36,954 nucleotides of DNA from assembly GCA_030600585.1 (NCBI GenBank), contig JAUVLU010000027.1, positions 1 through 36,954 on the forward strand, given 5' to 3'. The notes beneath the pieces were generated by a model. That model was not told the DNA's origin, searched no databases, and saw only the letters and a program-made list of their open reading frames with translations. This document shows positions 13,868-35,490 of this stretch, piece after piece (positions within the stretch are counted from its first letter, which is position 1; every line of letters starts with the position of its first letter). The translations under genes were made by a program, and so were the position numbers. The stretch is from Candidatus Cloacimonadota bacterium (GTDB lineage Bacteria; Cloacimonadota; Cloacimonadia; Cloacimonadales; TCS61).

Positions 13868-16800
13868 ATGAAAAAAGTTTTTTTCTTTATTGTAACAGTG
13901 TTGTGTTTTACATCACTCTTTGCCAATATGGCAATACCATTTAATGAGGAATATTTTCTACCCAAAAGAATAATTGTGGGGTTTGAATGGAATGCAATTG
14001 GTAACAGGGAATGTGTTTTGGAACACGAACTTAACGATGGTATTGTTGAAACAGGAATTGCAAGTTTTGATATTCTATCCGAACAATTTGAATTTGTAGA
14101 ATTAAAACAGCGTATTGATTTTGTGAAAGATCTGGATTGGAACGATAACGGATTATATCCAAGATGTATTTATAATATTACATTGGCAAACAATGATAAT
14201 ATCGAGGCAGCCGTTGAAGCACTTGCGGCAGATCCAAATATCATCTATGCCGAGTATGAGCCGATTTATAAAATTGATTACGTTCCAAATGATGCTTCTT
14301 ATGATATGCAGTGGTATCATGAATTCATTCAAAGTGAACCAGCTTGGGATTATACAACTGGAAGTGAAGATGTCATTATCGGTATTGTGGACTCCGGTAT
14401 CAAATGGAATCATCCTGACCTACTGAATAATATCTGGATCAATGAACCTGAATTAAACTCTACATCCGGTGGGAGTCCAATGAATATAAATTGGACGGCA
14501 GGGTCGGTTTCAGGAGGTAATGGAATAGATGATGATGGAAACGGAAAGATAGACGACTGTATAGGCTGGAATTTCTATGGTGCTCAAAGTAATCAATCAT
14601 ATCAGGGTTATGCGGATAATGCTCATGGTACCCACGTTGCGGGATGTGCCGGTGCAGTAGGAGATAATTATATTGGTGTAACGGGTCCCATGATGAACGT
14701 TAAACTAATTTCATCCCGCCATTCACCAACCAATACATCATCCAATTCAATTTACAATGGCTACCTTGGAGTTTATTACTGTGCAGATTCGGGTGCTGAT
14801 ATAATCAACTGTAGCTGGGGTGGAGGTGGTAGTCCATATACTCCCAATCTTGCTATAAATTATGCCATGGATCATGGAGCAATAGTAACATGTGCTGCCG
14901 GAAATGATAATGAAAATCTTGCTTCGAATCCTCATTACCCCGGCAACTGTACTAACGCTGTTTGTGTTGCTGCTACCGGTCCTAATAATGATGTAAAAGC
15001 CATGTTTTCAAATTATGGTACTACCGTGGATGTTTCCGCACCAGGTGCTAATATATATTCTACAATAATTTCAGGAAATGGCTACGAAAACTATAGTGGT
15101 ACCTCTATGGCTTCTCCTGTTGCAGCCGGTGTTGCCGGACTTATTAAGTCTGTCCATCCAGAGTTAACCTCTCAGGAACTTAAAACCAGATTGGAATACA
15201 CTTGTGATGACATTGAGGCTGTTAATGATTCAATGTACATTGGCATGTTAGGAGCAGGGCGTGTTAATTCTTTTAAAGGAGCCATGTACGATCTGATCCC
15301 TAATCTCACAATTGCTGAAATTACTATACTCGAACAAACCGGCGACGGTGATGGTGTTCCTAATCCGGGTGAAGTAATAAATCTTTTGGTTAACCTTGAA
15401 AATGATGCATTCTGGCTTGATGCTGAAAATATTACGGCTACTATCAGTTGTGAGGTTGCTGAAGTAACTATACTCAACGATGAAACTACATATTCTGATA
15501 TCTCCTCAGGATCCAGCGGTTGGAATTCCGGTGATCCTTTTAGCTTTGAAACTCCTGCCGAACTTTCTGATTTCGTTATTCCTTTTACTATGACCATTTC
15601 GGCAAATCCGAGTGCCGCATGGCCTTATGTTATAGAACATGAAGTAATAGTTGAATTAACTTTGGCTCAAGCTGGCTGGCCTTTGGTTTTAGGAAGTGTT
15701 TCTACATCAAGCGGGGTTATTGTAGACCTTGAAAATGATGGTTCAAACGAAATAATATTTGGTGATTATGCGGGGATGATTCATGTTATGCAGGCAGATG
15801 GAACTCCCGTTGCCCCATTCCCTATCGATACAGGTGCTACAATTGGTGTCGCAGTTGCAGTTGGTTTTGTAGATAGTGATGATAATGAAGATATTGTTAT
15901 CGGTAATGATGCAGGTCATGTGATTGCTTACGATCATGATGGAAACATTATTTTTGATTATCTCGCGGGTGGAAGTATAAAAAGTAATCCTATGATTGCC
16001 GATGTTGACGGTAATGGTACAATGGAAGTTATAGTTTGTACATACCCAGTCGGTGCAGTTCACATTATAAATTCAGATGGAACTTCCTTTCCTAATTTTC
16101 CGGCTACATTAGACAGCCCCGTAATGTTCTCTGCTGCTATTGGTGATTTGAATAACGATGGAAATCTTGAAGTTCTGGTCGTAACAATAGCAGGTTCCCT
16201 GTATGCGATCTCTTCCAATACCGGTTCCAATCTTTCCGGATGGCCATATGCTCTTGGTTCAGGCTCAACCCAAGGTCCGACTCTTTCAAACTTAGATGCC
16301 GATATTTATCCCGAAGTGCTGATCGCAACAGCTGCAACTCCAGGTAATGTTCATGTTATAGATAATGACGGTTCTCTTATCTTGGATTTGGCTATAGATG
16401 CTCAAGTTCGTACAGCAATCGTAACAGCAGATTTCAATAATAATGGAAACAACGATATTTGCTTTATTGATTTTAGCGGTAATATTCATCTTGTAGATCA
16501 AGCTGGAAATGATCTTCCAAATTTTCCGGTTAATATTGGTGAATCAGTTGACTCAACACCGGTTATTGTTGATATGGACGCAAATGGAACTCTTGATATT
16601 GTGTTTGGAGATAACGCTGGATATCTGCATTCAATAGATATTACCGGTAATGAAACATTTATGTTCCCAATAAATTTAGGAAGTTCTCTCAAAGTAGCTC
16701 CTGCTATAGGATATGCCGATGATGACGGAGATATTGAAATACTGATACCAAATCAGACATCCTACTTTCTGATAGATTACAAAAATTCAAGCGGCGCAGT

Positions 16801-17167
16801 ACATTGGGCAAATTTTAAACGTAATCCACAAAGAACCGGTAATGCTTCCGATCCTACATCCGGAATCGAGCCGGAAGTAGTTCCTGTATTTTCAAACGAA
16901 CTGAGCAAGAACTATCCCAACCCGTTCAATCCGGAAACTAATATCAGCTTCAGTATTAAGGAAGATGGTTATGTGAGCTTGAAAGTTTATAATATGCGTG
17001 GACAACTGGTAAAAACTCTCATCTCAGAAAACCTGCAGGAAGGTGTTCATTTTACACTATGGAACGGTAAAGATAATAGCAATAAATCTGTTTCCAGCGG
17101 AATTTATTTTTACAAAATGGATTCCAAAAACTATTCATCAACCAGAAAAATGATCCTTCTAAAATAA
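13868..17167 (+). CDS. Secreted subtilisin-like serine protease with FG-GAP/VCBS-like repeats and C-terminal sorting domain
   Basis: A 1099-aa exported protease. Residues 1-19 are a signal peptide and about 20-140 a propeptide. About 165-475 is an S8 catalytic domain with Asp 175 (IVDSG), His 253 (AHGTHVAG), oxyanion Asn 346 (AAGNDNEN) and Ser 413 (GTSMASPVAAG), so all catalytic residues are present. Residues about 480-600 form an Asp/Asn-rich Ig-like segment. About 600-985 hold repeats of the form DLNNDGNLEVLV and DVDGNGTMEVIV, an FG-GAP/VCBS-like beta-propeller with calcium-loop character. About 1005-1099 (KNYPNPFNPET to RKMILLK) is the FlgD-Ig/Por-type sorting domain. It is probably delivered to the cell surface or medium. 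It heads a plus-strand run of similar cargo genes. Confidence 0.95.
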   Translation: MKKVFFFIVTVLCFTSLFANMAIPFNEEYFLPKRIIVGFEWNAIGNRECVLEHELNDGIVETGIASFDILSEQFEFVELKQRIDFVKDLDWNDNGLYPRCIYNITLANNDNIEAAVEALAADPNIIYAEYEPIYKIDYVPNDASYDMQWYHEFIQSEPAWDYTTGSEDVIIGIVDSGIKWNHPDLLNNIWINEPELNSTSGGSPMNINWTAGSVSGGNGIDDDGNGKIDDCIGWNFYGAQSNQSYQGYADNAHGTHVAGCAGAVGDNYIGVTGPMMNVKLISSRHSPTNTSSNSIYNGYLGVYYCADSGADIINCSWGGGGSPYTPNLAINYAMDHGAIVTCAAGNDNENLASNPHYPGNCTNAVCVAATGPNNDVKAMFSNYGTTVDVSAPGANIYSTIISGNGYENYSGTSMASPVAAGVAGLIKSVHPELTSQELKTRLEYTCDDIEAVNDSMYIGMLGAGRVNSFKGAMYDLIPNLTIAEITILEQTGDGDGVPNPGEVINLLVNLENDAFWLDAENITATISCEVAEVTILNDETTYSDISSGSSGWNSGDPFSFETPAELSDFVIPFTMTISANPSAAWPYVIEHEVIVELTLAQAGWPLVLGSVSTSSGVIVDLENDGSNEIIFGDYAGMIHVMQADGTPVAPFPIDTGATIGVAVAVGFVDSDDNEDIVIGNDAGHVIAYDHDGNIIFDYLAGGSIKSNPMIADVDGNGTMEVIVCTYPVGAVHIINSDGTSFPNFPATLDSPVMFSAAIGDLNNDGNLEVLVVTIAGSLYAISSNTGSNLSGWPYALGSGSTQGPTLSNLDADIYPEVLIATAATPGNVHVIDNDGSLILDLAIDAQVRTAIVTADFNNNGNNDICFIDFSGNIHLVDQAGNDLPNFPVNIGESVDSTPVIVDMDANGTLDIVFGDNAGYLHSIDITGNETFMFPINLGSSLKVAPAIGYADDDGDIEILIPNQTSYFLIDYKNSSGAVHWANFKRNPQRTGNASDPTSGIEPEVVPVFSNELSKNYPNPFNPETNISFSIKEDGYVSLKVYNMRGQLVKTLISENLQEGVHFTLWNGKDNSNKSVSSGIYFYKMDSKNYSSTRKMILLK

Positions 17168-17282
17168 CCTTCGGAACGATGTATCGGCTTGAGTAACAAA
17201 CGATGCTGGAATTCTCTTGCCTGTCTTACGATTGATTCTGAGAGATCTTCCGAAAGGTTGCGTTCATAAAAAGTGGGGAAAG
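17159..17282 (+). repeat. About 125-nt dispersed repeat, copy 1, in the 3' region of the subtilase gene
   Basis: Starts at the last codons of the gene (CTAAAATAACC) and runs to GGGGAAAG. The second copy is at 21498-21624 with about six substitutions and one 3-nt indel over the compared stretch. The ends carry roughly inverted words (AACCTTCGGAACG on the left, CTTCCGAAAGGTT on the right), so the transcript could fold into a long stem. Confidence 0.8.
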
Positions 17283-17297
17283 CAATTTGCTTTCCCC
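17275..17297 (+). terminator. Rho-independent-type terminator hairpin after the subtilase
   Basis: GGGGAAAGCAA pairs perfectly with TTGCTTTCCCC around a single T (a realistic 5-nt loop leaves a 9-bp stem), followed by ATTTATTATTAT. Its left arm lies in the end of the dispersed repeat. Copy 2 of the repeat keeps only the left arm. Confidence 0.7.
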
Positions 17298-17583
17298 ATT
17301 TATTATTATAAATTAACACCCAAAGTATTTGACAGAAAAAGTTGTTTGAATTGAACTGCCGGTTGAAACATAAAAGAAATTTGTTTGCTGAAAGATTGTA
17401 AAAAAGATAAATTAATTAATTCTAATATCGAAGTGAAGGAATCTGAGTTCATAATTTAGAACTACGAATTAATTATATGTGAAATATTACTATCATAAAT
17501 AGGTTTTTTCTACAAAAAATGACATTTAATTATCGTGGTTAAATATTGAATTTTATATTAAAAAATTAAAAAAGGAGGAGATC
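17298..17583 (+). promoter_or_regulatory. AT-rich leader with TTTGACAG motif and a 28-nt block shared with the next gene
   Basis: TTTGACAG at 17328-17335 resembles motifs at 10360, 13797, 21681 and 31022 (minus). The 28-nt block at 17444-17471 (beginning TGAGTTCATAATTTAGAA) recurs at 19703-19730 upstream of the paralogue with 2 mismatches. AGGAGGAG precedes ATG 17584. No clear -10 box is seen. Confidence 0.45.
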
Positions 17584-19590
17584 ATGAAAAAAGTAATTTT
17601 ATTAACGATTGTTTTGATTCTATCATTTGTTTCTGAAGTAACAGCTCAGACACATGGTGACATACTCTGGACGAACTGCTATGGAGGGCCAGGCAGTGAT
17701 AAAGGTTCTGAAGTTCAACTGACATCTGATGGTGGATACATCATTACAGGACGAACAGGTTCATTCGGTGCAGGTGCTCAAGATGCTTATCTTATAAGGA
17801 CCGATGCAAATGGTGATACACTCTGGACAAAAACCTATGGCGGCACAGACTGGGATTATGCCTACTCGGTTAAGCAAACAACAGATGATGGATTTATTGT
17901 TGTAGGAGGATCAAGGTCGTTCAGTAGTGGTGGGGATTATGATGTTTATCTTATAAAGACCGATGCGAATGGTGATACCCTTTGGACAAAAACATACGGC
18001 GGAACAGATACTGAATATGGTTCTTCGGTTCAATTGACATCTGATGGGGGCTACATCATTATCGGAGTTACAATGTCGTACGGTGCAGGTGACAGAGATT
18101 TCTATCTTATAAAGACCGATGCAAATGGTGATATACTCTGGACGCAAACATACGGCGGAACAGATAGCGATGAAGGTTATTCAGTTCAACTAACATCTGA
18201 TGGAGGATATATTCTTGTAGGAGAAACATGCTCATACGGTGTACCAGTTGGTTCAGCAGATGTTTGGCTAATCAAAACCGATGCAGACGGTAATTTACTC
18301 TGGTCGCAAACCTATGGGGGTGCCTATACTGATTTTGGCAATTCTGTCCAACTGACATCTGACGGCGGATACATTATTGCAGCAGGAACGTGGTCGTATG
18401 GTGCCGGCAATACAGATGGTTATCTTATAAAGACAGATGCAGATGGTAATTCTCTCTGGACGCAAACCTATGGAAATACTTTTTATGACACTGCATATTC
18501 TATTCAGCAGACCGCTGATGGCGGTTATATTTTTACCGGCGATTATGGGTATGCAGATTATACAAATGATGTTTGGATAGTTAAGACAGATGAATCCGGT
18601 AATACAATTTGGGAAGAAACGTATGGAGAGGCAGGTGGCTGGAATTATGATTGTGGGGCTTCAATACAAATAACCTCTGATTATAACTATATTATTGCAG
18701 GGCAAACGTATTCCTATGGTGCAGGAGATTGGGATGTATGGATGTTAAAAATTGCTGGTGATGGTATTCCTCAATTAAATCCACCGACAAACGTTGTGTT
18801 CAATTCCTTTGTCGAGATCATTTTCTGGGAACCTCCGGAAGATTCAAATGCTACTTTAATAAATTATAACATATATCTGGATGGAGTTCTGGTAGAAATT
18901 GTTGGAATCGATATATTTGAATATCAATATATTGATATTCCACCTGGGCTTTATATTGTTGGTGTTTCTGCGGTTTATGAAGAAGGTGAATCAGAAATTA
19001 TTGAAGATGATGGTTGGGGATATATACGTTATCCCCCTACAAATGCTTCTTATGAGATAATTGATGACCACATTCATCTAACATGGCAGGAACCTGAACC
19101 GGGAAGTACATTTCCATTTCTGAATTACAAAATCTACCTGGATGGAGAGTTATTAGAAGAAACCAATGAACTTTTCTGCGATATATACGGTCTTGTCAGT
19201 GGTCAATCCTATCTTGTAGGGCTTACAGCTTTTTATGAGTATTTGTTTGAGTCCGATCCGATAGAATTTGAAATTACGTTTACCGGAATAAATCCGGGAA
19301 ATATCCAACCTGTTTCTGTTCTTTACCAGAATTATCCCAACCCATTCAATCCTGAAACTACAATCTCTTTTTCTGTAACACAAACGTCCCCGTTTGTGAC
19401 TCTTGAAATATTCAACATCAAAGGACAGAAGGTAAAAACACTTGTAAATGAAATACTGGATGCAGGTACACATCAGGTTGTTTGGAACGGAACTGACGAA
19501 AACAATAAGCAGGTTACATCAGGAATCTATTACTATCAATTGAAAGCAGAAAAATATACAAGCATTAAAAAGATGATTTTGATGAAATAG
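17584..19590 (+). CDS. Secreted seven-repeat protein (probable beta-propeller) with two FN3-like domains and C-terminal sorting domain
   Basis: A 668-aa protein of unknown function. Signal peptide 1-21. Residues about 25-390 hold seven repeats of about 50 aa, each starting (L/I)W(T/E/S)xxYG and containing TSDGGYI, G.T.SYGAG and D.YLIKTDANGDTL; seven units suggest one closed seven-bladed propeller. Two FN3-like domains follow (about 393-475 and 478-560, each with YNIYLDG or YKIYLDG). Residues about 580-668 (NYPNPFNPET to IKKMILMK) are the FlgD/Por-type sorting domain. The tandem paralogue at 19746 shares the repeats and about 95% of the DNA of the sorting module. It is likely surface-exposed or released; binding partners are unknown. 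Confidence 0.9.
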   Translation: MKKVILLTIVLILSFVSEVTAQTHGDILWTNCYGGPGSDKGSEVQLTSDGGYIITGRTGSFGAGAQDAYLIRTDANGDTLWTKTYGGTDWDYAYSVKQTTDDGFIVVGGSRSFSSGGDYDVYLIKTDANGDTLWTKTYGGTDTEYGSSVQLTSDGGYIIIGVTMSYGAGDRDFYLIKTDANGDILWTQTYGGTDSDEGYSVQLTSDGGYILVGETCSYGVPVGSADVWLIKTDADGNLLWSQTYGGAYTDFGNSVQLTSDGGYIIAAGTWSYGAGNTDGYLIKTDADGNSLWTQTYGNTFYDTAYSIQQTADGGYIFTGDYGYADYTNDVWIVKTDESGNTIWEETYGEAGGWNYDCGASIQITSDYNYIIAGQTYSYGAGDWDVWMLKIAGDGIPQLNPPTNVVFNSFVEIIFWEPPEDSNATLINYNIYLDGVLVEIVGIDIFEYQYIDIPPGLYIVGVSAVYEEGESEIIEDDGWGYIRYPPTNASYEIIDDHIHLTWQEPEPGSTFPFLNYKIYLDGELLEETNELFCDIYGLVSGQSYLVGLTAFYEYLFESDPIEFEITFTGINPGNIQPVSVLYQNYPNPFNPETTISFSVTQTSPFVTLEIFNIKGQKVKTLVNEILDAGTHQVVWNGTDENNKQVTSGIYYYQLKAEKYTSIKKMILMK

Positions 19591-19702
19591 GGTTCAACTC
19601 CCTCTTTGGTTACCTCCATAATTAGAGGATGTTTGTGTTTGCGAGATGCAATGTTTCACCGCTGGAACTAATTTTAAAATTAGCATGTGGATGAGGCAAA
19701 AT

Positions 19703-19730
19703 TGAGTTCAAAATTTAGAAATACGAATTA
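19703..19730 (+). promoter_or_regulatory. 28-nt leader block shared with the upstream paralogue
   Basis: This block matches 17444-17471 at 26 of 28 positions. It ends 15 nt before ATG 19746, whereas the other copy ends 112 nt before its gene, so it is probably a relic of the gene duplication and not a fixed-position operator. Confidence 0.5.
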
Positions 19731-19745
19731 TTCTAAGGAGAAAAC

Positions 19746-21476
19746 ATGAAAAAAGTAATGTTAATAACAGTGATGCTGTGCTTATTTTTTGTATCTGGAT
19801 TATTGGGCCAGGCACCTGGTGACACATTATGGACGAAGACCTATGGAGGAGTAGATATTGATTCTGGAACCTCAGTTCAACAGACTACAGATGGCGGATA
19901 CATCGTTACAGGGACTACGGAAAATTTCGGTGCAGGCGGTAATGATGTATGGCTCATCAAGACAAATACATCCGGTGATACCCTGTGGACAAAGACATAT
20001 GGAGGGACAAATGATGATTTGGGACAATCAGTTCAGCAAACCACAGATGGTGGATACATCGTTGCAGGATGGACAAAATCTTCTTCCTTTTGTAATTTGG
20101 GATACTTAATAAAGACTGATTCAGATGGTGATACTCTCTGGACAAAGATCTTGGGAGATGATGGATTTATCAAATTTACTGAGTTTTATTCAGTTCAGCA
20201 GACCACAGATGGCGGATATGTCGCTGCGGGATTTACAACTTGCTATGGTGCTGGTGGATACGATGTTTATCTAATTAAGACCGATTCAAATGGGGATACT
20301 CTCTGGACAAATACATATGGAGGTGCAGGTGCCGATCAAGGCTGGTCGGTCCAGCAGACGACAGATGGCGGTTACATAGTAGCAGGATTTACAGAATCCT
20401 ATGCTATAGGTAATTTGGATGTGTACTTAGTAAAGACCGATTCAAATGGGGATACTCTCTGGACAAAGACCTATGGAGGGACAGGTTACGAAAAAGGCTT
20501 TTCGGCCAGGCAAACTTCTGATGGAGGATATATTGTTGGGGGATATACGGGGACAGCCGATATGTACTCTAGAGATATGTATCTAATAAAGACAGATTCA
20601 AATGGTGATACCCTCTGGACAAAAATCTATGGGGGTGCAACTGGTGATGAGGAGAGCCGCCTAGTTATACAGACCTCAGATGGTGGATATATTGCTACAG
20701 GATCTACAGCTTCCTATGGTGCAGGTAGTCATGATGTTTATTTATTAAAGACAGATTCAGATGGTGATACCCTCTGGACAGGTACCTATGGTGGTACAGG
20801 TTTCGATTATGGCTATTCAGTCCAGCAGATCACAGGTGGTGGATATATTGTTGCAGGTTATACAACATCATATGGTGCAGGTTATTATGATGTATGGATG
20901 TTAAAAATTGCTGGTGATGGTATACCTCCACTCAACCCACCACAAAATTTATTTGTAGACGAACTTGGTTATGCAACATGGGATCCTCCTTTAGCTCGAG
21001 ACTTACTTGGTTATAACATCTATCTGGATGGAGTATTTATAGGTCTCACAACAGACCTGTTCTGGCAATATACAGATTTAGTAAATGGCCAAATTTATAT
21101 AGCTGGTGTTTCTGCATTATATGATGAGGGTGAATCCGATCCTATTAATAATGACTTCATGTATATCGGAACAAATGCTGAGAATGATATTATACTGACA
21201 ACGAAGCTCATGGGTAATTATCCCAACCCGTTCAATCCGACAACTACAATCTCTTTTTCTGTAACACAAACGTCCCCGTTTGTGACTCTTGAAATATTCA
21301 ACACCAAAGGGCAGAAGGTAAAAACACTCGTAAATGAAAAACTGGATGCAGGTGCACATCAGGTTGTATGGAACGGAACTGACGAAAACAATAAGCAGGT
21401 TACATCAGGAATCTATTACTATCAATTGAAAGCAGGAAAATATACTGAAACGAAGAAAATGATTCTCCTTCGCTAA
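19746..21476 (+). CDS. Secreted seven-repeat protein (probable beta-propeller), paralogue, with FN3-like and C-terminal sorting domain
   Basis: A 576-aa paralogue of the preceding gene. Signal peptide about 1-21 (ends LLGQA). Seven repeats (about 25-395) begin LWTKTYGG or close variants; repeat 3 is the most divergent (LWTKILGDDG). One FN3-like domain (about 398-475) replaces the two in the neighbour. Residues about 488-576 are the sorting domain (GNYPNPFNPTT to KKMILLR). The C-terminal residue is Arg instead of the usual Lys, because a 30-nt palindromic segment appears to have entered at the last codons and supplied a new stop. CTAAGGAG precedes ATG 19746. Same strand, 155 nt after its paralogue. 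Confidence 0.9.
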   Translation: MKKVMLITVMLCLFFVSGLLGQAPGDTLWTKTYGGVDIDSGTSVQQTTDGGYIVTGTTENFGAGGNDVWLIKTNTSGDTLWTKTYGGTNDDLGQSVQQTTDGGYIVAGWTKSSSFCNLGYLIKTDSDGDTLWTKILGDDGFIKFTEFYSVQQTTDGGYVAAGFTTCYGAGGYDVYLIKTDSNGDTLWTNTYGGAGADQGWSVQQTTDGGYIVAGFTESYAIGNLDVYLVKTDSNGDTLWTKTYGGTGYEKGFSARQTSDGGYIVGGYTGTADMYSRDMYLIKTDSNGDTLWTKIYGGATGDEESRLVIQTSDGGYIATGSTASYGAGSHDVYLLKTDSDGDTLWTGTYGGTGFDYGYSVQQITGGGYIVAGYTTSYGAGYYDVWMLKIAGDGIPPLNPPQNLFVDELGYATWDPPLARDLLGYNIYLDGVFIGLTTDLFWQYTDLVNGQIYIAGVSALYDEGESDPINNDFMYIGTNAENDIILTTKLMGNYPNPFNPTTTISFSVTQTSPFVTLEIFNTKGQKVKTLVNEKLDAGAHQVVWNGTDENNKQVTSGIYYYQLKAGKYTETKKMILLR

Positions 21477-24080: not shown

Positions 24081-24500
24081 GTGTTTCCTATACTTATATT
24101 TTTTTTGCAACGACCAGAAAGAATAAAAATGTTTCTGAAAATTACGTAAACCAAGATTTATGAGGGGGTTGTATTAGCAAGGTATTTGTTTGGGAACGCG
24201 GATCGGCTTAACTTCACCCTCGTTCATATAAAGTAGTAAAGTCAAATATAGAACTCAATCTACAATTGTAAATTTTTTAATGTTCAATTGTCTCGTTACG
24301 AAGTTATAGCGTTCCCAAGACGAACTTGGGAACGAGATTAATGTGGGATGGGCAATTGCCTATCAGGTTAGGTCATTCTGGCGCTTGCCAGCTTTGGGCT
24401 GGTATCTTGCACGTTGTTCTTTGGAAGAATCTCGAACGGAATAATAATGAAAAACATAACAATTTTCATATTATTAATCGTGTTTATTTCTATCCTTTCT
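24081..24500. other. Intergenic region with nested palindromes
   Basis: About 420 nt without a supported gene. Perfect or near-perfect palindromes: GTTCCCAAG/CTTGGGAAC around ACGAA (24311-24333), GGCAATTGCC (24351-24360), CTGGC-GCTT-GCCAG (24378-24391). TTGGGAACGC at 24190-24199 is inverted against GCGTTCCCAA at 24309-24318, so a roughly 130-nt outer stem is possible. A 21-codon plus-strand frame (24447-24512) encodes only a signal-peptide-like stub and overlaps the end of the TPR gene; I do not call it a gene. Confidence 0.6.
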
Positions 24501-25631
24501 TTAGAATTTTAGATTCTTTAATCTTGCTTTTGCTGTTTCTGTGTAGAAGGTCTCTTTTCCCTTACCATTTGCAATTATTCTTTCCAACCAGATTCTTGCT
24601 TTTTTCGTATTGCCCTCTGCCCAATATGCTTGTGCGATTTGATATCTGAAACCTTGCATGTAAGCACTTTTGGGGAAATCTTTTTCAAAATCTGAAAATG
24701 TTTTAAGAACAACAGGAATGTATTTTTTAAAATCTTCTTTCAAGCCGAATGCTTTTTGATTATCATCGGGATTTGATGAACCGAGAAGAGCAAAGAGTTT
24801 CCTCCTGTAAGCAACTTCTGCAGAAGGAGTATTCGCAAATTCTTTTAAAACTTTATCATACCATTTTATAGCGATTTCTACATTTGGCATCCAGGAAGAA
24901 TCTATTATGAATTCTCTATCTGCATTCGACCAGAAATCTCCATTTTGCAGATATGCTCTGGCAACAAGCGTTATAGTATTTCTATCGGAATCAAAAGTAA
25001 CGATATCGGAAACCTGCGAATAAATTGTTGCTATTTGCTTAGCATATTCGGAATCTGGAAATTTGGTGATCAGAAGTTCCCAATCTTCCAGTGCAAGCGA
25101 GAAATTTCCTTCTTCAAAGATGATCTGACCGACGATATACAAAGCTTTTGCTTTTTCATCCGCAGATGATTCGGAATTATGATATATAGAAAGAAATTTT
25201 TCTTTGGCTATCTCATTAAAATCATGTCGATAATAATCATTTGCAATATCCAGAGCAGAGACTTCATACTTTTTTTCTTTTAATATTGCTTGTTTTATAT
25301 TTTCAAGTTTTTCCAATATTGTCTTATTCAATTTGTGATCCGGATATTTTTGTTTGAAATTATTCCAATCTGCAATTGCATTATTAAAATCTTTTTTCTC
25401 ATACGAAATTTCACCCATCATATATAATGATTCAGCTTTATATTCTTTTGGTGTTCGTTCATTATTATATAATATAATAAATCGTTCCAATGCATCATCC
25501 AGAAATCCGTGATTATATAGGTCAAAAGCTGATTCTAAATTATATAATAAATTTGACCTATGTGATATTTCTGTAGAATATAATAGATTAGAAATGATAA
25601 TAATAACAATAAGAAATAGTATTTTTCTCAT
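24501..25631 (-). CDS. Exported TPR-repeat protein, last gene of the Mot/Fli-like operon
   Basis: A 376-aa protein with a signal peptide (MRKILFLIVIIIISNLLYS). At least two long TPR-type units are clear: YNHGFLDDALERFIILYNN...SLYMMGEISYEKKDF, and YRHDFNEIAKEKFLSIYHN...ALYIVGQIIFEEGNF, plus further units to the end (YQIAQAYWAEGNTKKARIWL). This resembles YbgF/CpoB or BamD-like periplasmic TPR proteins. The ATG at 25631 is 2 nt after the MotB stop and has an AGGAG site, so co-translation is likely. In the periplasm it could link the MotB-like peptidoglycan anchor to outer-envelope partners, similar to CpoB beside TolQR; that is inference. Confidence 0.85.
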   Translation of the reverse strand: MRKILFLIVIIIISNLLYSTEISHRSNLLYNLESAFDLYNHGFLDDALERFIILYNNERTPKEYKAESLYMMGEISYEKKDFNNAIADWNNFKQKYPDHKLNKTILEKLENIKQAILKEKKYEVSALDIANDYYRHDFNEIAKEKFLSIYHNSESSADEKAKALYIVGQIIFEEGNFSLALEDWELLITKFPDSEYAKQIATIYSQVSDIVTFDSDRNTITLVARAYLQNGDFWSNADREFIIDSSWMPNVEIAIKWYDKVLKEFANTPSAEVAYRRKLFALLGSSNPDDNQKAFGLKEDFKKYIPVVLKTFSDFEKDFPKSAYMQGFRYQIAQAYWAEGNTKKARIWLERIIANGKGKETFYTETAKARLKNLKF

Positions 25632-25633
25632 TT

Positions 25634-26323
25634 TTATCTCCTTGTCTCATCAAACTTTTTATTAATTTTTATATCAACACGTCTATTTTTTTTTCTATTC
25701 TCAGCCGAGTCATTATCAACTATAGGTTTATATTCACCAAATCCCATGGCTTGCAGTTGAGATGGTAAAAAATGGTCATTTTCGATAAATACTCTTACTA
25801 CAGAAATTGCTCTTGCTGTAGAAAGTTCCCAATTAGAAGGAAACTCACTGTTATTTATTGGAATGTTGTCGGTATGTCCTTCAATTCTTATTTCCCAACC
25901 GAGATCTAATTGGAAAGAATCTTTAATGCTTTTGGCAATAAGATCAAGAGCTTCTTCTGCACCTTTTTTCAGATCGGCTTTTCCACTTTTAAAAAGGATC
26001 TCACTTGGAACGGTTATTGTTTTTTCATTCAAATCAAAAGAGAGTCCCTTAGCTTTCATTGCTTCTTGTTGTAATAATTCGTACTGTGAACTAACAATAA
26101 AGAAAAACACGAAGAAAACCAGAAGAAGCGTCATTAAGTCTGCATAAGGTATCATTGTATCTAAAAGTGTTTCATCAAGTTTTTTTTCCGATCCTTTTAC
26201 AAGAGTTTCCATTTCATCTTTTATCTGGGTTTTTTCCAGATCAATATATTCTGCCTGATACTTCACAGCATTAGCTTTCATAGATATGTCTTTCCGCTTT
26301 TTAAGATTATTTATATATTTCAT
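25634..26323 (-). CDS. motB: MotB-like stator protein with OmpA peptidoglycan-binding domain
   Basis: A 229-aa protein. Residues 1-57 are a long charged cytoplasmic segment. The single membrane helix (about 59-78) starts MIPYADLMTLLLVFF, with Asp 62 at the position of the proton-carrying Asp 32 of E. coli MotB. A plug-like stretch (about 79-95) leads to an OmpA-type domain (about 105-222) with the IEGHTDNIPI, NWELSTARA and NRRVDIKI motifs for peptidoglycan. An in-frame ATG at 26281 would remove 14 residues; both starts have weak Shine-Dalgarno sites, so the exact start is uncertain. It lies 16 nt after MotA. Presence of the conserved Asp argues for a working ion-driven stator. Confidence 0.92.
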   Translation of the reverse strand: MKYINNLKKRKDISMKANAVKYQAEYIDLEKTQIKDEMETLVKGSEKKLDETLLDTMIPYADLMTLLLVFFVFFFIVSSQYELLQQEAMKAKGLSFDLNEKTITVPSEILFKSGKADLKKGAEEALDLIAKSIKDSFQLDLGWEIRIEGHTDNIPINNSEFPSNWELSTARAISVVRVFIENDHFLPSQLQAMGFGEYKPIVDNDSAENRKKNRRVDIKINKKFDETRR

Positions 26324-26339
26324 ATTCCTATTTTAATAA

Positions 26340-27077
26340 TTAATCTAAAAATCCGTGTAATCTTTCTTTAAGGATCAGATTAGTATCACCTCTTTGAATG
26401 GATAGAATTCCTTCCAGAACTAATAATCTCAGACGAGTATTGCGAAGATTTCTAACTCCGATCTTTCCTGCAATGGGTTTAAAGATCAAAGCTGCCAAAA
26501 TCAAACCATATAAAGTAGTTACCAGGGCAAGTCCCATAGCAGCCGGTATTTCTGCAGGGTTCTGAACTCTGTTAAGCATTGCAATAAGACCGATCACAGT
26601 TCCCATCATTCCAAACATTGGAGATAACGAACCGGCAATATAAAAAACATTCTCGGCAATATTATGTTTTCTTGTCAAACCCCTGTTTTCTCTTAAGAGG
26701 ACATCACGGATAAATGCAGGATCCATATTATCAGTAATTAAAGTTATACCTTTTATCAGGAAAGAAAAATTTGTGTATGCATCGAAGTTCGTAATGTTAT
26801 TTACTCCATTCTTTTTCGCTTCGCTGTTTATTTCTACTAATGTATTTATGATCTCTTTTTCAGAATGATCTTTTTCGAATATTATTTTGAAAAATGCATC
26901 GAAAGCATGATGAATATCATTATAAGAAAAAAAAACCAGAATTGCACAAATAGTACCACCGAGAGTAATTAATAAACCCGAATAATTAATAAAAAGTCTA
27001 ACGTCTTCATTCAGAAATATTACATAAGCAATAACCGCAACACCTAAGATTAATCCAATTATCAACGAAGATTTCAT
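26340..27077 (-). CDS. motA: MotA-like stator protein (MotA/TolQ/ExbB superfamily)
   Basis: A 245-aa protein with four membrane helices (about 4-22, 33-52, 145-166, 182-204) and a cytoplasmic loop of about 90 residues, the size and layout of MotA and unlike the shorter ExbB/TolQ. GTVIGLIAML (159-168) and GLALVTTLYGLILAALIFKP are typical of the proton-channel helices, with Pro 153 and Pro 201 at the places of the two conserved MotA prolines. A strong AAGGAAGG site precedes ATG 27077, 10 nt after the FliF-FliG fusion stop. Together with MotB it would form an ion-driven stator; its natural partner here is the FliG domain of the gene upstream. Confidence 0.93.
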   Translation of the reverse strand: MKSSLIIGLILGVAVIAYVIFLNEDVRLFINYSGLLITLGGTICAILVFFSYNDIHHAFDAFFKIIFEKDHSEKEIINTLVEINSEAKKNGVNNITNFDAYTNFSFLIKGITLITDNMDPAFIRDVLLRENRGLTRKHNIAENVFYIAGSLSPMFGMMGTVIGLIAMLNRVQNPAEIPAAMGLALVTTLYGLILAALIFKPIAGKIGVRNLRNTRLRLLVLEGILSIQRGDTNLILKERLHGFLD

Positions 27078-27087
27078 AATTCCTTCC

Positions 27088-28560
27088 TTATATATATCCT
27101 AAGATCGTTTTAATTAATTTTAATGTATCATTGATCGCAATTTCTTTTTCTTCATCTATTTGTACACCGGCAAATTGTAGTTCCTCATTTATCATCGATG
27201 CATTTCTGTCCGTCATATTGGAAATAAACTTGTTTCTTATTGTTTCATCTGTACTTGCCAGAAAATCAACTAACAACTCATGATCGATCTCAAAGATAAT
27301 ATCTTTTAGCATAGAATCACCCAATTTCATAATATCTTCCGATAAGAATATTTTGTCTCTGATCTCTGCTGCTGTCTCTTGATTTAATTTACAGATCCGT
27401 TCAAAGACCGAATTTGCTTTTTTATCTGGCAGATTATTAATGAATTTCACTAACGATGCTTTGCCGTCTGTTTTGATAATTTGTTCATCGATCGTTTTGC
27501 TATAACTCTTTAAAATGTTCGTTCTAAGTTCGACGAGTTTATCTTTCGGTAAATTTGTTTCTTTCATCATGATTTCAACTAATTTGTTAGTTCTTTCATC
27601 TGAATCATTAATTAATAATCGATTTACAAAATCAATCGGAAGTACGGAAAGTAGATATGATAATTCATTTTTCTGCAAATTTCTATTTTCTATTAGATTA
27701 AAGAATTCATCGTTTGTTAAATTCTCCAGAAAATTGAAATCAGGAAGTTCTTTTGTTTTTTCATTTTTATCTTCCCGGATATTTATTCCAAGAGGATTTT
27801 TTTTCGATTCTTCTAAAATTGCAGTACTGTGTCTTACTGATGAAAAAGCTTTATCGGGCTTGACCTTATAAGAATTACTTGCATTGGATGTTTTGATCTG
27901 AACAATTGAATCACGAAGTGATCGTATTCCAAAGCGAAGTGTAAAAACCAATAATATTAAGCTAATTGATAAGATCAACCCGATAATCGCTATCAACCAG
28001 ATATTTGTGGAAATTCCCCCTTCTCCGCCAGTAAATGGTAAATTATTATTATTTTTATAAGGAAGAGAAGTTTTATCCGTTTTCTCAGGTTTTTCCCCGG
28101 CAGCAGTAAAAGAAAGAGTTTTATTGATCGTGAGTTCGTCACCTTTTTGCAAATCGAGTCCCAACCAGTCAGTTACGCTTTGTTCTACGTATTTCTCTTT
28201 AGCAGATTTAATTGATTTCATCAAATAAATACTAACTTTCATATTAACAATCTGGATTTGATCAATATTAGCATTTGTCAGTTTGTTTTTTAATTGTTCG
28301 GTTTTGCTCTTCTGAATATCATCTTTATAATAAGATTTATTATCTTCTTTGGAAATATGTGATCGAGAAGAAGGATATTTAAGATCAAGATCGATAATTA
28401 CAATAGATTCTCCGACGAACGGAAATAATAATTTTTCAATTCGTTCAGAAATTTTCTGCTCAGTTTCCAATTCTACAACAGTATTAATATTCTCTGATTT
28501 TATTGCAGGAAGAACACAAACAGCAGAAAATAAACATAACAATATTAAAATTTTCTTCAT
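27088..28560 (-). CDS. FliF(C-terminal)-FliG fusion protein: signal peptide, periplasmic FliF-like domain, membrane helix, FliG middle and torque domains
   Basis: 490 aa from ATG 28560 (AAAGGA site; a longer frame to 28632 lacks one). Residues 1-20 are a signal peptide. About 30-150 resemble the C-terminal part of FliF: SERIEKLLFPFVG then ...IVNMKVSIYLM and VTDWLGLDLQKGDELTI, compared with the LLEPVVG...V.V.V and AVGLD..RGD.V.V signature of FliF. Residues 187-208 form one membrane helix. About 275-355 match the FliG middle domain (DEFFNLIENRN, LSYLLSVLPIDFVNRLL). About 365-488 match FliG-C (AAEIRDKIFLSEDIMKLGDS, EIDHELLVDFL, FISNMTDRNASMINEEL). The first membrane helix and RBM1/RBM2 of normal FliF and the N-terminal domain of FliG are missing. 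It heads an operon with MotA, MotB and a TPR protein. Domain calls are by eye but strong for FliG-C. Confidence 0.85.
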   Translation of the reverse strand: MKKILILLCLFSAVCVLPAIKSENINTVVELETEQKISERIEKLLFPFVGESIVIIDLDLKYPSSRSHISKEDNKSYYKDDIQKSKTEQLKNKLTNANIDQIQIVNMKVSIYLMKSIKSAKEKYVEQSVTDWLGLDLQKGDELTINKTLSFTAAGEKPEKTDKTSLPYKNNNNLPFTGGEGGISTNIWLIAIIGLILSISLILLVFTLRFGIRSLRDSIVQIKTSNASNSYKVKPDKAFSSVRHSTAILEESKKNPLGINIREDKNEKTKELPDFNFLENLTNDEFFNLIENRNLQKNELSYLLSVLPIDFVNRLLINDSDERTNKLVEIMMKETNLPKDKLVELRTNILKSYSKTIDEQIIKTDGKASLVKFINNLPDKKANSVFERICKLNQETAAEIRDKIFLSEDIMKLGDSMLKDIIFEIDHELLVDFLASTDETIRNKFISNMTDRNASMINEELQFAGVQIDEEKEIAINDTLKLIKTILGYI

Positions 28561-28949
28561 ATTTTTTCCTTTGATTCTTAAGAATAGATCAACTATATAA
28601 TATATCTGAATGATATTTCTGAATCTACTCAATATTTACTATTTAATACTAATTTCATTATCTTTGCATATATAATTCATCTATGAACAATCGCCATATT
28701 ACAGAATGTTTTAGTTTTCTAAAACACATTTCTCAAACATCTATATTAAAAAAGATAGATTCGAAATTAAATTGTTTATGTCAAAGCTTTTTTAATAATA
28801 CTTATAATACATTACTATTTGGATTAAAGACGATTTCTATCGTTTGGGATGAAATATATAATTTGTAATAATTGGCTATACATTCTTTATATCTCAACTC
28901 ATGGTTTGTAAACTCGAATCAAGTTATGCTTCAATTACAAGATTCATAA
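28561..28949. promoter_or_regulatory. AT-rich region upstream of the FliF-FliG operon
   Basis: 389 nt without a supported gene. Its left part must hold the minus-strand leader of the operon: read on the minus strand it carries ATATATTATATAG about 35-50 nt before the start, AT-rich enough for a -10 region, but no clear -35. None of the GC-rich palindromes seen elsewhere occur here. A 61-codon plus-strand frame (28683-28868) has no ribosome site and is not called. Confidence 0.35.
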
Positions 28950-29573
28950 TTATTCCAATTCTATTCTAAGTTGTTCATCAACTGTTAAATCATCAATATT
29001 TATGTATGATGTGTCATCAATATAACCATTATCAAATTCAATGACAAACGAATATGAGATCGAGTCATATTCTGTAGTTGCTCTTAATCTGCTCCATGCA
29101 GAATCACCCGAAGCTATTGACTGAATTATAGAAATAAGAGAATCAGAATCATTAGTATAATATGCCAGATCAATTACATCTATTGGAAAATTATTTATAA
29201 GTTTTATTCCTGCGTGGGTTGGATCACAGTAAATGTTAAGTGTTTCTTTTGGTATAACCTGCAAGGTGGTTTCAGAATAGTATTCCCAATCCGGTGGTCC
29301 GTGAAACTCATCCTTCATCATGAATGTTTCACCTTCTAAGTGCAGATCAACTTCCACATAAGCTTCGCTGTAAAACAGAACCTGCTTGCCTGTATCAACA
29401 CTAATTGTCATTTCGGGGTTGGAAGTTTCCGAGCCTTCTAAAGTGTAATCGTTTCCCTCGATCGTAAAGTAAAGACTGTGGTTTGTTCGGTTGATTATTC
29501 TTATATCGCCTTCTGTTGAACAACCGGCTATAACAATGATCAACAACATAAATGGGAATAATAATTTTTTCAT
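28950..29573 (-). CDS. Lipoprotein of unknown function
   Basis: 207 aa from ATG 29573, chosen because AGGAG precedes it and it gives a clean lipoprotein signal (MKKLLFPFMLLIIVIAGC, Cys 18). The mature part is acidic and beta-rich: IRIINRTNHSLYFTIEG resembles an Ig-like strand pair. A second similar unit (about 120-205) starts IKLINNFPIDVIDLAYYTN, so the protein may contain two related sandwich domains. I do not recognise the family. It lies 98 nt after enolase on the same strand. Confidence 0.75.
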   Translation of the reverse strand: MKKLLFPFMLLIIVIAGCSTEGDIRIINRTNHSLYFTIEGNDYTLEGSETSNPEMTISVDTGKQVLFYSEAYVEVDLHLEGETFMMKDEFHGPPDWEYYSETTLQVIPKETLNIYCDPTHAGIKLINNFPIDVIDLAYYTNDSDSLISIIQSIASGDSAWSRLRATTEYDSISYSFVIEFDNGYIDDTSYINIDDLTVDEQLRIELE

Positions 29574-32157: not shown

Positions 32158-33696
32158 TCATTTAAGCAGCAAGCATTTTTTTACGGATTTTGACTTACCA
32201 TTAATAGATAATTTATAGAAATATATTCCTGATGAAACAGGTTGGTTATTGTCATCAGTGCCGTTCCAAGATATGGAGTAGCTGACTCCGTCAGCAAAAA
32301 ACGGCGAGGGACTCGCCGACTCCAAAATATCAAAAGTTTTTACTTTCTGTCCTTTTATGTTGTAGATTTCAAGAGTCACAAAATCGGAATTTTGTGTTAC
32401 AGAAAAAGAGATTGTTGTTGTAGGATTAAATGGGTTAGGGTAATTTTGGTTTAAATGTGTATTCAAACAAGGTAATTGATCATTTGTTCCCGTCCAATTT
32501 ACTATGATAGTATTTGTAGGTTCTGTATCACCATTATTATTATATGCCGTAACATAGTATTCATGTGTATTGTTTGGATTTGTTATTAAATATTCTGTTT
32601 GAGTTGCATCTACAGTTTGGAATAAAATACCATCTTCATAAATATGATATCCAAGCCAATCGATTTCATCTCTTCCGTCTGGTTCTTGTCCATAGGGTGG
32701 GTCCCATTTTAACAAAACTGAAGCATCTTGGTTAATAGAGATTAAATCTGTTGGACGATCATAAAAAATTAATGAATAAACCCATCGATTATTTTCATCT
32801 AGTGGCATCATACCTGATCCGCTTTCAATATGGTAATCAAATAACTCAAAATTTCTCAATGTATAAGGGATGTCATTATAATAGAAGATGTTTTTTTCTT
32901 TAACAATACCATAATCAGAAACAAACCATTTTTTTACAAGTTCAGGATAATTAGTTGTAGCTTCTGTTATAATTGCAATTTCATCAATTCCATTAACTTG
33001 AACAATTTGAGTCCCTATTGCTTCCATTTCAGTATAATAAGCATTTAGTGGACCGGGAGAGTCTCTATCTAAAAATGCAGTTGTCCATATATCATTTACG
33101 GTCATTTGCTCAGGACACCAAACAGCATTTTCATCGTAAATAATTTCATCAATCGAACCATATCCATTATATCCAAAAATTCTTGCACCATATATTTTTA
33201 TGCTGTCTTGTTCAGCATAAAGATAGTGTTGTTCGTAACAATTCAATGGCATATGAAAAAATTCGAGTGGAATAACTTCAGTTTGGCCAAAATTAATCGG
33301 TTCGACAAATCGTGCGAGATACATTGGGGAATAGTCGAGTAACTCAAGGGTTAAGTCTTCAACAGGTTGGCCTTCTTCAACATTTACTATCTCAGGATAC
33401 AAACATGATGGGTAAATGCCGTATGCAAAATTATTATCATTATCTGTATATGCAGAAAAAGTATAAATGTAATAATTATCTGGTTCCAATGTAAAAGTGA
33501 ATGAACCATCAGGCTCTAACGGAAATGGTAATACCCAACCATTACTCAAATCAAATACAACAACTGCTGGATTATTTAGTGTAAAATTACCATTGTATGT
33601 AACCGTACCTTCAACTACTACTTCTCTATTTCTACTTTCAGTAGAGAATAATACTGTATTACAAATTATCATCAAAAATAATATAATTTTTCTCAT
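32158..33696 (-). CDS. Secreted multidomain protein with C-terminal sorting domain carrying a palindromic insert
   Basis: 512 aa, function unknown. Signal peptide about 1-20. Residues about 25-115 (VVVEGTVTYNG, FTLEPDNYYIYTF) look like a carboxypeptidase-regulatory beta sandwich. The middle is Tyr/Asp-rich without a recognised domain. About 315-400 is FN3-like (VLLKWDPPY, YHIYEDG). About 415-512 is the FlgD/Por-type sorting domain (NQNYPNPFNPTTTISFSV to VKKCLLLK). Within it, residues 460-472 (SASPSPFFADGVS) have no counterpart in the paralogous domains and are encoded by two palindromes. AAAAAGGAG precedes ATG 33696. It is followed on the same strand by the SPFH gene after 174 nt. Confidence 0.88.
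   Translation of the reverse strand: MRKIILFLMIICNTVLFSTESRNREVVVEGTVTYNGNFTLNNPAVVVFDLSNGWVLPFPLEPDGSFTFTLEPDNYYIYTFSAYTDNDNNFAYGIYPSCLYPEIVNVEEGQPVEDLTLELLDYSPMYLARFVEPINFGQTEVIPLEFFHMPLNCYEQHYLYAEQDSIKIYGARIFGYNGYGSIDEIIYDENAVWCPEQMTVNDIWTTAFLDRDSPGPLNAYYTEMEAIGTQIVQVNGIDEIAIITEATTNYPELVKKWFVSDYGIVKEKNIFYYNDIPYTLRNFELFDYHIESGSGMMPLDENNRWVYSLIFYDRPTDLISINQDASVLLKWDPPYGQEPDGRDEIDWLGYHIYEDGILFQTVDATQTEYLITNPNNTHEYYVTAYNNNGDTEPTNTIIVNWTGTNDQLPCLNTHLNQNYPNPFNPTTTISFSVTQNSDFVTLEIYNIKGQKVKTFDILESASPSPFFADGVSYSISWNGTDDNNQPVSSGIYFYKLSINGKSKSVKKCLLLK
32281..32317 (-). repeat. Paired palindromes inserted in frame inside a coding region
   Basis: GCTGAC-TCC-GTCAGC (32281-32295) and GGCGAG-GGA-CTCGCC (32303-32317) are both perfect. 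They lie inside the sorting domain of the gene above, making it about 8 residues longer than its paralogues between KGQKVKT and WNGTD. Confidence 0.75.
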
Positions 33697-33818
33697 TTGC
33701 TAGCTCCTTTTTTTATTGCCTATAATGGCAGCGTGCCACGTTTACCCGACCTTTGGCGTGGTTCTTCTTGCTTTTCTCTCAATCTGAATGTGGAGGCTTT
33801 TGTTAGCAGCTTCTTCTA
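33697..33818. repeat. Palindrome-rich gap, copy 2 of the TGCCACGTTTACCCG repeat
   Basis: Carries TGCCACGTTTACCCG (33734-33748, identical to copy 1) and CTTTTCTCTCAATCTGAATG then TGGAG (33771-33795, 24 of 25 identical). ACC-TTTGGCGTGGTTCTTCTTG here also resembles 36108-36132 next to the IS element. Confidence 0.7.
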
Positions 33819-35366
33819 TCATTTCAAAAGCAAACACTTTTTCACTGCTTCGATTTTGCCGTTAACTTTCAAATTATACAGATAAACGCATGAACTAACA
33901 GGTTTATTGGATTCATCATCTCCATTCCAGATAATTGAATGGCTACCTTTTGTAAATTCATTGTTAGCTAAAGTTTTGATTTTCTGACCTTTGATATTGA
34001 AAACTGAAAGTTCAATTTGAGAATCATTTTGGATAGAAAACTCAATTGTTGTTGTAGGATTGAATGGATTGGGGTGGTTACACAACTTAGATATTGGTTC
34101 CGCAATTATGTTATTTTCACAACTGACTTGAATCTCATTTTCAAGTTGATAAACATTATAATACTCTGGATTACTAGGATTGCCCCCTCCTTCAATAAAA
34201 TAAAGAGAATTATCATTTGCTCTCAAAATGAAATCTGGATGAATATCTGACTGCTGAGTTAATACAATTTGACCAGTTAAGCGATCTCTTATCTCTAACT
34301 TAGGAAGATCTGGTTGATCATAATTTTCTCCAAAATAGAGAATGTAATTTTCTCCAAGATTTGTTGAAACACAAGTTGAAACAGTTAAATAATATCCTTC
34401 TTCCATTATACCTAATTGCTGTGAAATCCATAAAGTATCTGAAAAATCTGGAGAATAACTTTGAAACCAATAATCTGAATTTGATAATAAAACTGATAAA
34501 CCATAATCAGAATAATTTAAATCATTTTCTGTTAATAGTTTGAGAGTACTGTTAGTTGAATAACGAATATCATATATTTGAGAAGGAATATCAAATGATA
34601 GCGTTTTTAGATATTCCGATGATCCCATCGATTGATTACCCATATTATCACAATATGACCAACTATTTTTACAAAATGAAATTAGTGAATTAAAATCATT
34701 GTAATGTAGCAAAATAGAACCAGCATTTGCAATTGTTTCTTCAAAAACAAGTGTATTATTATCGAAAGAGAATCTATTGATTTTATTAGATTTAGTAGTA
34801 TGGTAACCTTCTTCCCAACTGCCCCAAGAATGGGTTATTTTTTCTCCAATATAAAGATTTAATGAATTGTTTAACACAATAGGATTAATCTGATTAACAT
34901 CAAAACCATAACCTTCTTCATCCATACAAGTGCCAATAAATATAGATGAACTATCTATAAGTGTGTAATTATCCCATTCATAAATCTTTAGATCAGAATA
35001 TACATCAGATACGTAAGGTGCTTGCTCTTCATATCTTATTAATACGGTGGCAAGATACAAAGAATCATTATAATTAAATAACAGCCCATTTTTAAAAGGA
35101 ATAAAATTATTTGGATAATCGTATGTATAATTCCACAAAACTGTTCCGCTAAAGTCTAAACAATATAATTTCCAATTATCTTCAGAATAATTAATGTATA
35201 GGACATACATTTCATCAACACCGTTATTATCCAAATCATCAATCCAGATATTATGTAAGTAATCATCTGGTGTAGGATCTTCGATATTGAAAATGTATTC
35301 AAAGTTTACTTGAGAAAAAAGGTGTACTGTAAAACAAATTAAAATTATTAATAAAATATATTTCAC
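33819..35366 (-). CDS. Secreted protein with C-terminal sorting domain
   Basis: 515 aa from a GTG at 35366, preferred because GGAGG lies 6 nt upstream and the product starts with a signal peptide (MKYILLIILICFTVHLFSQ with the initiator). The longer frame to 35441 would translate a palindrome and has no ribosome site. Residues about 25-75 contain an FG-GAP-like calcium-loop unit (DDLDNNGVDEMYVLY). The middle is beta-rich with WN, WE and YD strands, perhaps a propeller, and is not recognised. About 430-515 is the sorting domain with NHPNPFNPTT replacing NYPNPFNP and ending VKKCLLLK, like its neighbour. The likely role is a surface or released protein. Confidence 0.85.
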   Translation of the reverse strand: MKYILLIILICFTVHLFSQVNFEYIFNIEDPTPDDYLHNIWIDDLDNNGVDEMYVLYINYSEDNWKLYCLDFSGTVLWNYTYDYPNNFIPFKNGLLFNYNDSLYLATVLIRYEEQAPYVSDVYSDLKIYEWDNYTLIDSSSIFIGTCMDEEGYGFDVNQINPIVLNNSLNLYIGEKITHSWGSWEEGYHTTKSNKINRFSFDNNTLVFEETIANAGSILLHYNDFNSLISFCKNSWSYCDNMGNQSMGSSEYLKTLSFDIPSQIYDIRYSTNSTLKLLTENDLNYSDYGLSVLLSNSDYWFQSYSPDFSDTLWISQQLGIMEEGYYLTVSTCVSTNLGENYILYFGENYDQPDLPKLEIRDRLTGQIVLTQQSDIHPDFILRANDNSLYFIEGGGNPSNPEYYNVYQLENEIQVSCENNIIAEPISKLCNHPNPFNPTTTIEFSIQNDSQIELSVFNIKGQKIKTLANNEFTKGSHSIIWNGDDESNKPVSSCVYLYNLKVNGKIEAVKKCLLLK

Positions 35367-35404
35367 AATTCCTCCAGTTTTTTTGTTGCTGCTAATGAAT
35401 ATGT

Positions 35405-35490
35405 CCCCGAACAAGTTCGGGGATTTCTCCTTTAGATTCATAAAAAAGTTCGGGGATACTCCCGATTTGGGAGTGTATACGAACTTTTTT
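35405..35490. terminator. Two hairpins, the second bidirectional and flanked by A/T runs
   Basis: CCCCGAAC-AA-GTTCGGGG (35405-35422) is perfect. AAAAAAGTTCG (35442-35452) pairs with CGAACTTTTTT (35480-35490) around an inner CTCCC-GATTT-GGGAG stem; with A6 on one side and T6 on the other it could terminate transcripts in both directions. It sits in the leader of the minus-strand gene. Confidence 0.6.

Follow-up and report, generated by a model that had tools for sequence, protein, structure and literature searches.

To our knowledge, and as far as the literature can be searched, descriptions of a FliF/FliG rotor are confined to flagella. There, a Salmonella motor carrying a FliF-FliG fusion-deletion still rotates (PMC9389320). 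A study of non-flagellar MotAB-family "generic ion transporters" (PMC12505986) ties the FliG-facing stator type to flagella; it mentions FliG a single time, in the introduction, and does not place it next to non-flagellar stators. In the type IX secretion system (T9SS) of Bacteroidota, a type-B substrate gene is usually followed by that of its PorP/SprF shuttle (PMC12618676). Such shuttles, 14-strand barrels of the FadL family, hold the adhesin (PMC9143113); in Flavobacterium, the gliding track that moves has its link to SprF at the periplasmic C-tail of the latter (PMC12635249). Here we describe a 36,954-nucleotide stretch of DNA (the window; contig JAUVLU010000027.1, positions 1 to 36,954, assembly GCA_030600585.1) from a Candidatus Cloacimonadota bacterium, in which a four-gene operon at 24501-28560 of the minus strand encodes a FliF-FliG fusion, MotA, MotB and a tetratricopeptide-repeat (TPR) protein. 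We propose, with a probability of roughly 0.6, that this operon and its relatives specify a rotary motor that descends from the rotor and stator of the flagellum, is driven by protons and works independently of any flagellum, with its output at the outer membrane (OM) or cell surface.

The FliF-FliG fusion and its stator genes

The fusion (27088-28560, minus strand; 490 residues, with an ATG at 28560) comprises a signal peptide (residues ~1-22), a FliF RBM3-like periplasmic domain (~28-147), a transmembrane helix (~186-210), a linker (~222-270) and the FliG middle and C-terminal domains (~276-487); a 514-residue version of the open reading frame (ORF) from a TTG at 28632 is a mechanical extension. 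Its FliG part is recognised by Pfam FliG_C (1.8e-13) and by the TIGR00207 fliG equivalog model, the latter match spanning both the middle and C domains (6.9e-16), while a family profile made from 12 relatives matches FliG structures in the PDB at 6e-34. An identity as MgtE, raised by a Pfam MgtE_N match (2.4e-6), was set aside as secondary because the FliG matches are far stronger and longer. For the FliF part, a Pfam search with the single sequence gave no match; the N-terminal third of the 12-relative profile matches the FliF S-ring chain 9yh6 (8.9e-5), and hhalign pairs the fusion with the flagellar FliF of flagellated Cloacimonadota at 5e-5, against 0.2-0.8 for unrelated controls.

Predicted structure points the same way. 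The AlphaFold2 model of the fusion (mean predicted local distance difference test score 68, mostly 75-93 in the FliG part and 70-83 in the RBM part) begins with a signal helix, followed by an RBM domain of alpha-beta-beta-alpha-beta fold, a single transmembrane helix, a linker that is disordered and the helical M-C region of FliG. When this model was compared using Foldseek, ranks 1-13 were FliG (best 1e-7) and ranks 14-31 were almost all FliF MS- or S-ring structures (1.2e-3 to 1.4e-2). By model and Foldseek alike, RBM1, RBM2 and the first transmembrane helix are not present in the fusion, the signal peptide being followed by RBM3 only; the protein also has no FliG N domain.

The remaining three genes follow on the same strand, the successive intergenic gaps being 10, 16 and 2 nucleotides. 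MotA (26340-27077; 245 residues; Pfam MotA_ExbB 2.9e-20) aligns to PomA over its whole length (2e-36), contains the conserved prolines of the channel motifs, and in model searches scores 5.8e-47 with PomA versus 0.0056 with TolQ, which makes it a stator subunit of the full flagellar MotA type. MotB (25634-26323; 229 residues) carries the proton-carrying Asp at residue 62, a plug region (MotB_plug 2.5e-7) and an OmpA-like peptidoglycan-binding domain (Pfam OmpA 7.7e-20), and matches MotB structures at 2.5e-27. The fourth product (24501-25631; 376 residues), an exported TPR protein with YbgF/CpoB- and BamD-like repeats (TPR_6 6e-12; 1.3e-15 to the tol_pal_ybgF model, under that model's cut-off), is proposed as the periplasmic coupling partner. 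None of TolA, TolB or Pal is encoded within the operon, and a scan for promoters and terminators returned matches no more frequent than in shuffled sequence.

Profile, profile-profile and fold comparisons thus show a protein whose periplasmic part is predicted to be an S-ring domain of the FliF type and whose cytoplasmic part is predicted to be the torque domain of FliG, with genes for its own MotA5-MotB2-type stator alongside. A preliminary description, drawn up from the DNA alone, had read the locus in much this manner, and its account holds in (i) the four ORFs, their strand and their spacing, (ii) the FliF C-terminal-like periplasmic part joined to the FliG middle and C domains, (iii) the signal peptide in place of the first FliF helix and RBM1/RBM2, (iv) the full MotA and the MotB with Asp 62 and a peptidoglycan domain, and (v) the exported TPR protein. 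The profile search that it had named beforehand as the test of the 490-residue protein yields significant FliG matches, and significant FliF matches via the family profile and hhalign.

Torque, switching and the missing flagellum

The source genome (2.58 Mb, 96.8% complete) was searched as a whole using FlhA and FliG_C as markers of a flagellum. It contains no match to FlhA (PF00771), and only two FliG_C proteins, both of them fusions, one in the window and the other on contig C24; rod, hook and filament genes were sought among the window proteins scanned, where there are none, the genome-wide searches having covered FlhA and FliG_C only. The operon might in principle supply the ordinary FliF/FliG/MotAB of a flagellum encoded elsewhere in the genome, given that all four motor components are members of flagellar families. 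However, the lack of FlhA in a genome of this completeness, the fusion nature of both FliG_C proteins, the missing RBM1 and RBM2, and the distribution described below render this exceedingly improbable, and for the source genome it is refuted as far as FlhA and FliG allow. What the preliminary description had said of the window, that no flagellum is in view, hence extends to the genome for these two markers, and the finding it had named as fatal, a complete flagellar gene set with the fusion as its normal FliF/FliG, is contradicted by a genome with neither FlhA nor a canonical FliG.

A survey of co-occurrence, also suggested there, detected the fusion in 24 of 125 Cloacimonadota genomes and FlhA in 12, the two together only in G047 (81% complete), such that FlhA was not found in 23 of the 24 carriers; MotA and MotB directly follow the fusion at every locus with enough contig (22/22). 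Because it is conserved across 24 of 125 genomes, the fusion operon is not a chance arrangement. One Neomarinimicrobiota genome (L068) carries the fusion as well, and FlhA-positive families of the same order have ordinary FliF-FliG-FliH-FliI operons. In phylogenetic analysis, the fusions form a single deep clade apart from the flagellar FliG of the same phylum (support 100/98), a placement to be read with caution owing to long branches.

Residue conservation separates torque from switching. The MotA-contacting FliG Arg281 and the acidic pair at 288/289 (E. coli numbering; R281, D288, D289) are kept in all 22 fusions, whereas the FliM-binding EHPQ motif occurs in none of the 22, versus 23 of 23 flagellar FliGs from the same two phyla; the proton-carrying Asp of MotB is present in 24 of 25 family members. 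This pattern fits a rotor that is still driven yet no longer switched.

The window operon itself arrived by transfer. Positions 24502-28597 share 87.9% DNA identity (blastn) with an operon in G106, a genome of another genus (g13), in which the counterpart of the TPR protein is 87% identical. In G001, of the same genus as the source, the window sequence from 28957 onward and from 24189 downward aligns to sites ~10 nucleotides apart, so that the flanks of the insert at 24190-28956 abut there (blastn, and gene order in L118); no convincing terminal repeats were seen around this segment. Misbinning of the contig was rejected, because RecJ of the window is 86-87% identical to that of same-genus genomes versus 55% (protein) to that of the g13 genome G021, and because the flanks match G001. 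On these alignments, the four-gene set was horizontally inserted into the source genome as a unit. Having moved between genera in this way, it is probably self-contained, an argument for its functioning as one unit, perhaps with partners supplied in trans.

The barrel and surface-protein cassette

By gene content, the window operon is a variant and not the main form of the system: it is a paralogous version in which a free TPR protein stands in place of a barrel and an adhesin. The second fusion copy of the source genome, on contig C24, is accompanied by genes for a giant surface protein and for a barrel resembling T9SS shuttles. In 17 Cloacimonadota loci, an OM barrel with a TPR tail is encoded directly upstream of the fusion and, contig permitting, the gene before it encodes a surface protein of 772 to >2,700 residues with immunoglobulin- or cadherin-like repeats and a C-terminus conserved across families ('..KILNRRGKLI..GGFYIYQV..YQGSIIIAR'). 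The same module occurs with FG-GAP surface proteins, in a different gene order, in G036 and in the Neomarinimicrobiota genome. A structural model of the barrel-TPR protein comprises 14 strands and the TPR part, its top PDB match being a chain of the T9SS RemA-substrate complex 8gl6 (6e-11), followed by FadL; the surface protein in L049 matches CHU_C (3.8e-6). No homology was found between the TPR protein of the window and the barrel-TPR protein.

The preliminary description had listed the moving of surface adhesins among possible roles, pointing to sorting-domain proteins encoded near the operon. The role itself gains support from the second copy and from the related genomes, where these genes adjoin those of a giant surface protein and a shuttle-like barrel; as for the pointer, the relevant adhesin pair is in the other cassette. 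The five window proteins with T9SS sorting-type C-termini (Por_Secre_tail or FlgD_ig, including a subtilase; 13868-21476 and 32158-35441) are located around the operon and outside it.

The SprA translocon of the T9SS is present in the phylum, SprA_N having been detected on contig C19 of the source genome (7e-19) and in all 71 good Cloacimonadota genomes. GldLM as the local T9SS motor was not found: GldM_1st (GldM-N) gave no match above cut-off in any of the 125 Cloacimonadota genomes, a search in which the control set likewise gave no positive, and which was made for GldM and not for GldL. Rather than moving adhesins, the MotAB motor could belong to an envelope-energising complex of the Tol-Pal or T9SS-motor type, either pulling or cycling a periplasmic TPR protein for envelope upkeep or powering the T9SS in place of GldLM. 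The YbgF/CpoB-like match of the window TPR protein would speak for this, as would a phylum with SprA and no GldM-N above cut-off. We consider this unlikely. The fusion cannot be a general T9SS motor, because it is present in 24 of 125 genomes as opposed to the near-universal SprA; moreover, Tol and Ton stators act on nothing like a FliG rotor, whereas the conserved FliG torque residues point to one.

A further explanation would tie the motor to export or movement of surface polysaccharide, in the manner of Agl-Nfs spore-coat transport in Myxococcus (PMC3858216). The module does adjoin Poly_export/SLBB genes in G036 (L049), G107 (L084) and the Neomarinimicrobiota genome (L068), with LytR-CpsA-Psr also nearby in L068 and L084, and Wzz/AAA_31 also in L049 and L068. 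Most loci, however, have no polysaccharide genes nearby and instead have the giant protein and barrel, and no polysaccharide-export gene adjoins the window operon; such a role is thus improbable.

In the rotary motor that we favour, RBM3 domains of the FliF part would assemble a ring, MotB would anchor MotA to peptidoglycan, and proton flow would turn the MotA pentamer, which would bear on a ring made by the C domains of FliG. With the FliM-binding motif lost, and with FliF and FliG in one chain, this rotor would have neither C-ring switch nor export gate, and would probably turn one way. Less certainly, ring motion would then pass across the periplasm to the TPR partner. For the main cassette, this partner would be the TPR tail of the PorV/FadL-type barrel, and the motor would move a surface adhesin, for gliding or other work at the surface, as suggested by the gene next to that of the barrel, whose product is a giant surface protein ending in a type-IX-like C-terminus; in the window variant, the free periplasmic TPR protein would take the coupling place. 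We regard a working rotary stator-rotor as very likely. Movement of adhesins as its output is plausible, at about half that level of confidence, and the complete picture of a gliding-type surface machine, in which a natural FliF-FliG ring turned by MotAB drives giant adhesins bound to an OM shuttle, would amount to a new class of such machines and is put forward tentatively.

Several observations count against this motor or its proposed output. That the fusion would form rings, rotate and touch the TPR protein or barrel is read from sequence and from a structural prediction that is a monomer with a predicted template-modelling score of 0.31. Neither barrel nor adhesin genes adjoin the window operon. 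Among 10 barrels examined, PorP_SprF matches 2 and PorV matches 6, mostly weakly, and the TIGR04131 type-B sorting model reaches 1.5e-4 in L068 and 5.6e-3 in L037, both under cut-off; because these sorting-signal matches are weak, we infer the T9SS dependence of the main cassette with reserve. In the motor proper, the position of FliG Arg297 (GPVR) is Arg in none of the 22 fusions and Lys in one; the MotA positions corresponding to E. coli R90 and E98 are partly kept (the first often R/K/H, the second mostly non-acidic), and are K and T in the window. MotB of G047 (L050, 216-797), the only carrier that also has FlhA, contains Asn instead of the proton-carrying Asp, and the MotBs of two f13 loci, of 140 residues (L067, 9579-10001) and 179 residues (L066, 9490-10029), are without a recognisable OmpA-like peptidoglycan-binding domain, in cassettes that are otherwise intact and where assembly error is possible.

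These MotB defects, the loss of FliM binding and the FlhA-positive relatives in the same order could also be taken as signs that a flagellum was lost and that these genes are a relict, which no longer rotates and serves as an ion channel, a scaffold or a sensor. Invariance of the torque Arg and acidic pair, the conserved stator linkage, the deep and separate fusion clade, and transfer as a unit are nonetheless unlike decay, and we hold a relict to be quite unlikely.

Other arrangements were noted around the family. An MscS-type mechanosensitive channel gene comes directly after MotB, overlapping it or nearly so, in L033 (7664-8569) and at the same place in g1 and g13 genomes. FliG-like matches, mostly uninspected, are present in 156 of 245 Neomarinimicrobiota genomes, and FlhA above cut-off in 42. 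Four Neomarinimicrobiota loci read by eye (L107, L112, L113 and L114, in G357, G309, G253 and G146, respectively) hold unfused operons of barrel-TPR, MotA, MotB, a short RBM3-only FliF (YscJ_FliF_C 1.8e-15 in L114) and a full FliG. In three of the four, FliG has other residues in place of the torque Arg and acidic pair (KKQAMYEP); G309 encodes FlhA and a separate flagellar FliG as well. A second FliF-FliG fusion type of the same phylum, of 509-533 residues (L108, L109, L110 and L111, in G330, G148, G301 and G277), is followed by genes for two TPR proteins and lacks adjacent MotAB genes; the three sequences aligned have lost the torque residues.

Comparison with known systems

As the preliminary description had supposed, no account of a FliG-MotAB system lacking a flagellum, or of Cloacimonadota or Marinimicrobia with such genes, was found in open-access PMC text, a scope outside of which lie most subscription journals and preprints. 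The proteins all belong to known families; within that scope, no described system was found to combine them in this manner. If the proposed motor is real, (i) the flagellar motor is a separable, re-usable module, (ii) a rotary machine driven by proton-motive force is added to the few known, (iii) a simpler torque system becomes available, with one rotor protein, one stator pair, no switch and no export, and (iv) its pairing with T9SS-like adhesin cassettes links two motility systems thought unrelated. This bears on whether components of the flagellum can function or evolve apart from it, and the related unfused FliF-FliG-MotAB-barrel operons of Neomarinimicrobiota would, if truly akin, make the machine widespread.

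We know of no FliF/FliG rotor in the Agl-Glt gliding machinery of Myxococcus, and its OM partners differ from those here. What it does share is a stator of the MotA/TolQ family (AglRQS) in non-flagellar movement (PMC9389320), just as the "generic ion transporters" (PMC12505986) share the non-flagellar use of a MotAB-like stator. Relative to Tol-Pal, the stator here is of the full flagellar MotA type, and not TolQR. Like Bacteroidota gliding and the T9SS (GldLM or PorLM, the GldKN ring, SprF, SprB), the main cassette would combine an inner-membrane motor driven by proton-motive force, a giant surface adhesin whose C-terminus may serve in sorting, and a barrel that resembles PorV/SprF and extends a tail into the periplasm, the putative substrate gene preceding that of the shuttle (PMC12618676, PMC12635249, PMC9143113); the cassette differs in having MotAB with a FliF-FliG rotor, in that no GldM-N was found, and in a barrel tail made of TPRs as opposed to a cysteine tail bound to GldK.

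The closest relative remains the flagellar rotor and stator, with which the system shares FliF RBM3 and the transmembrane helix that follows it, the middle and C domains of FliG including torque residues, MotA, and MotB with its Asp and peptidoglycan-binding domain. It departs from the flagellum in its natural FliF-FliG fusion, in the absence of RBM1/RBM2, the FliG N domain, EHPQ and, from the genome, the FlhA export gate, and in its neighbours, which are a TPR protein or an OM barrel and surface protein. Engineered and spontaneous FliF-FliG fusions of Salmonella and Vibrio (8z4d, PMC11481574) likewise combine S-ring and torque ring in one polypeptide; those fusions occur in complete flagella that have the export-side domains of FliF, whereas the fusion described here is natural, minimal and non-flagellar.

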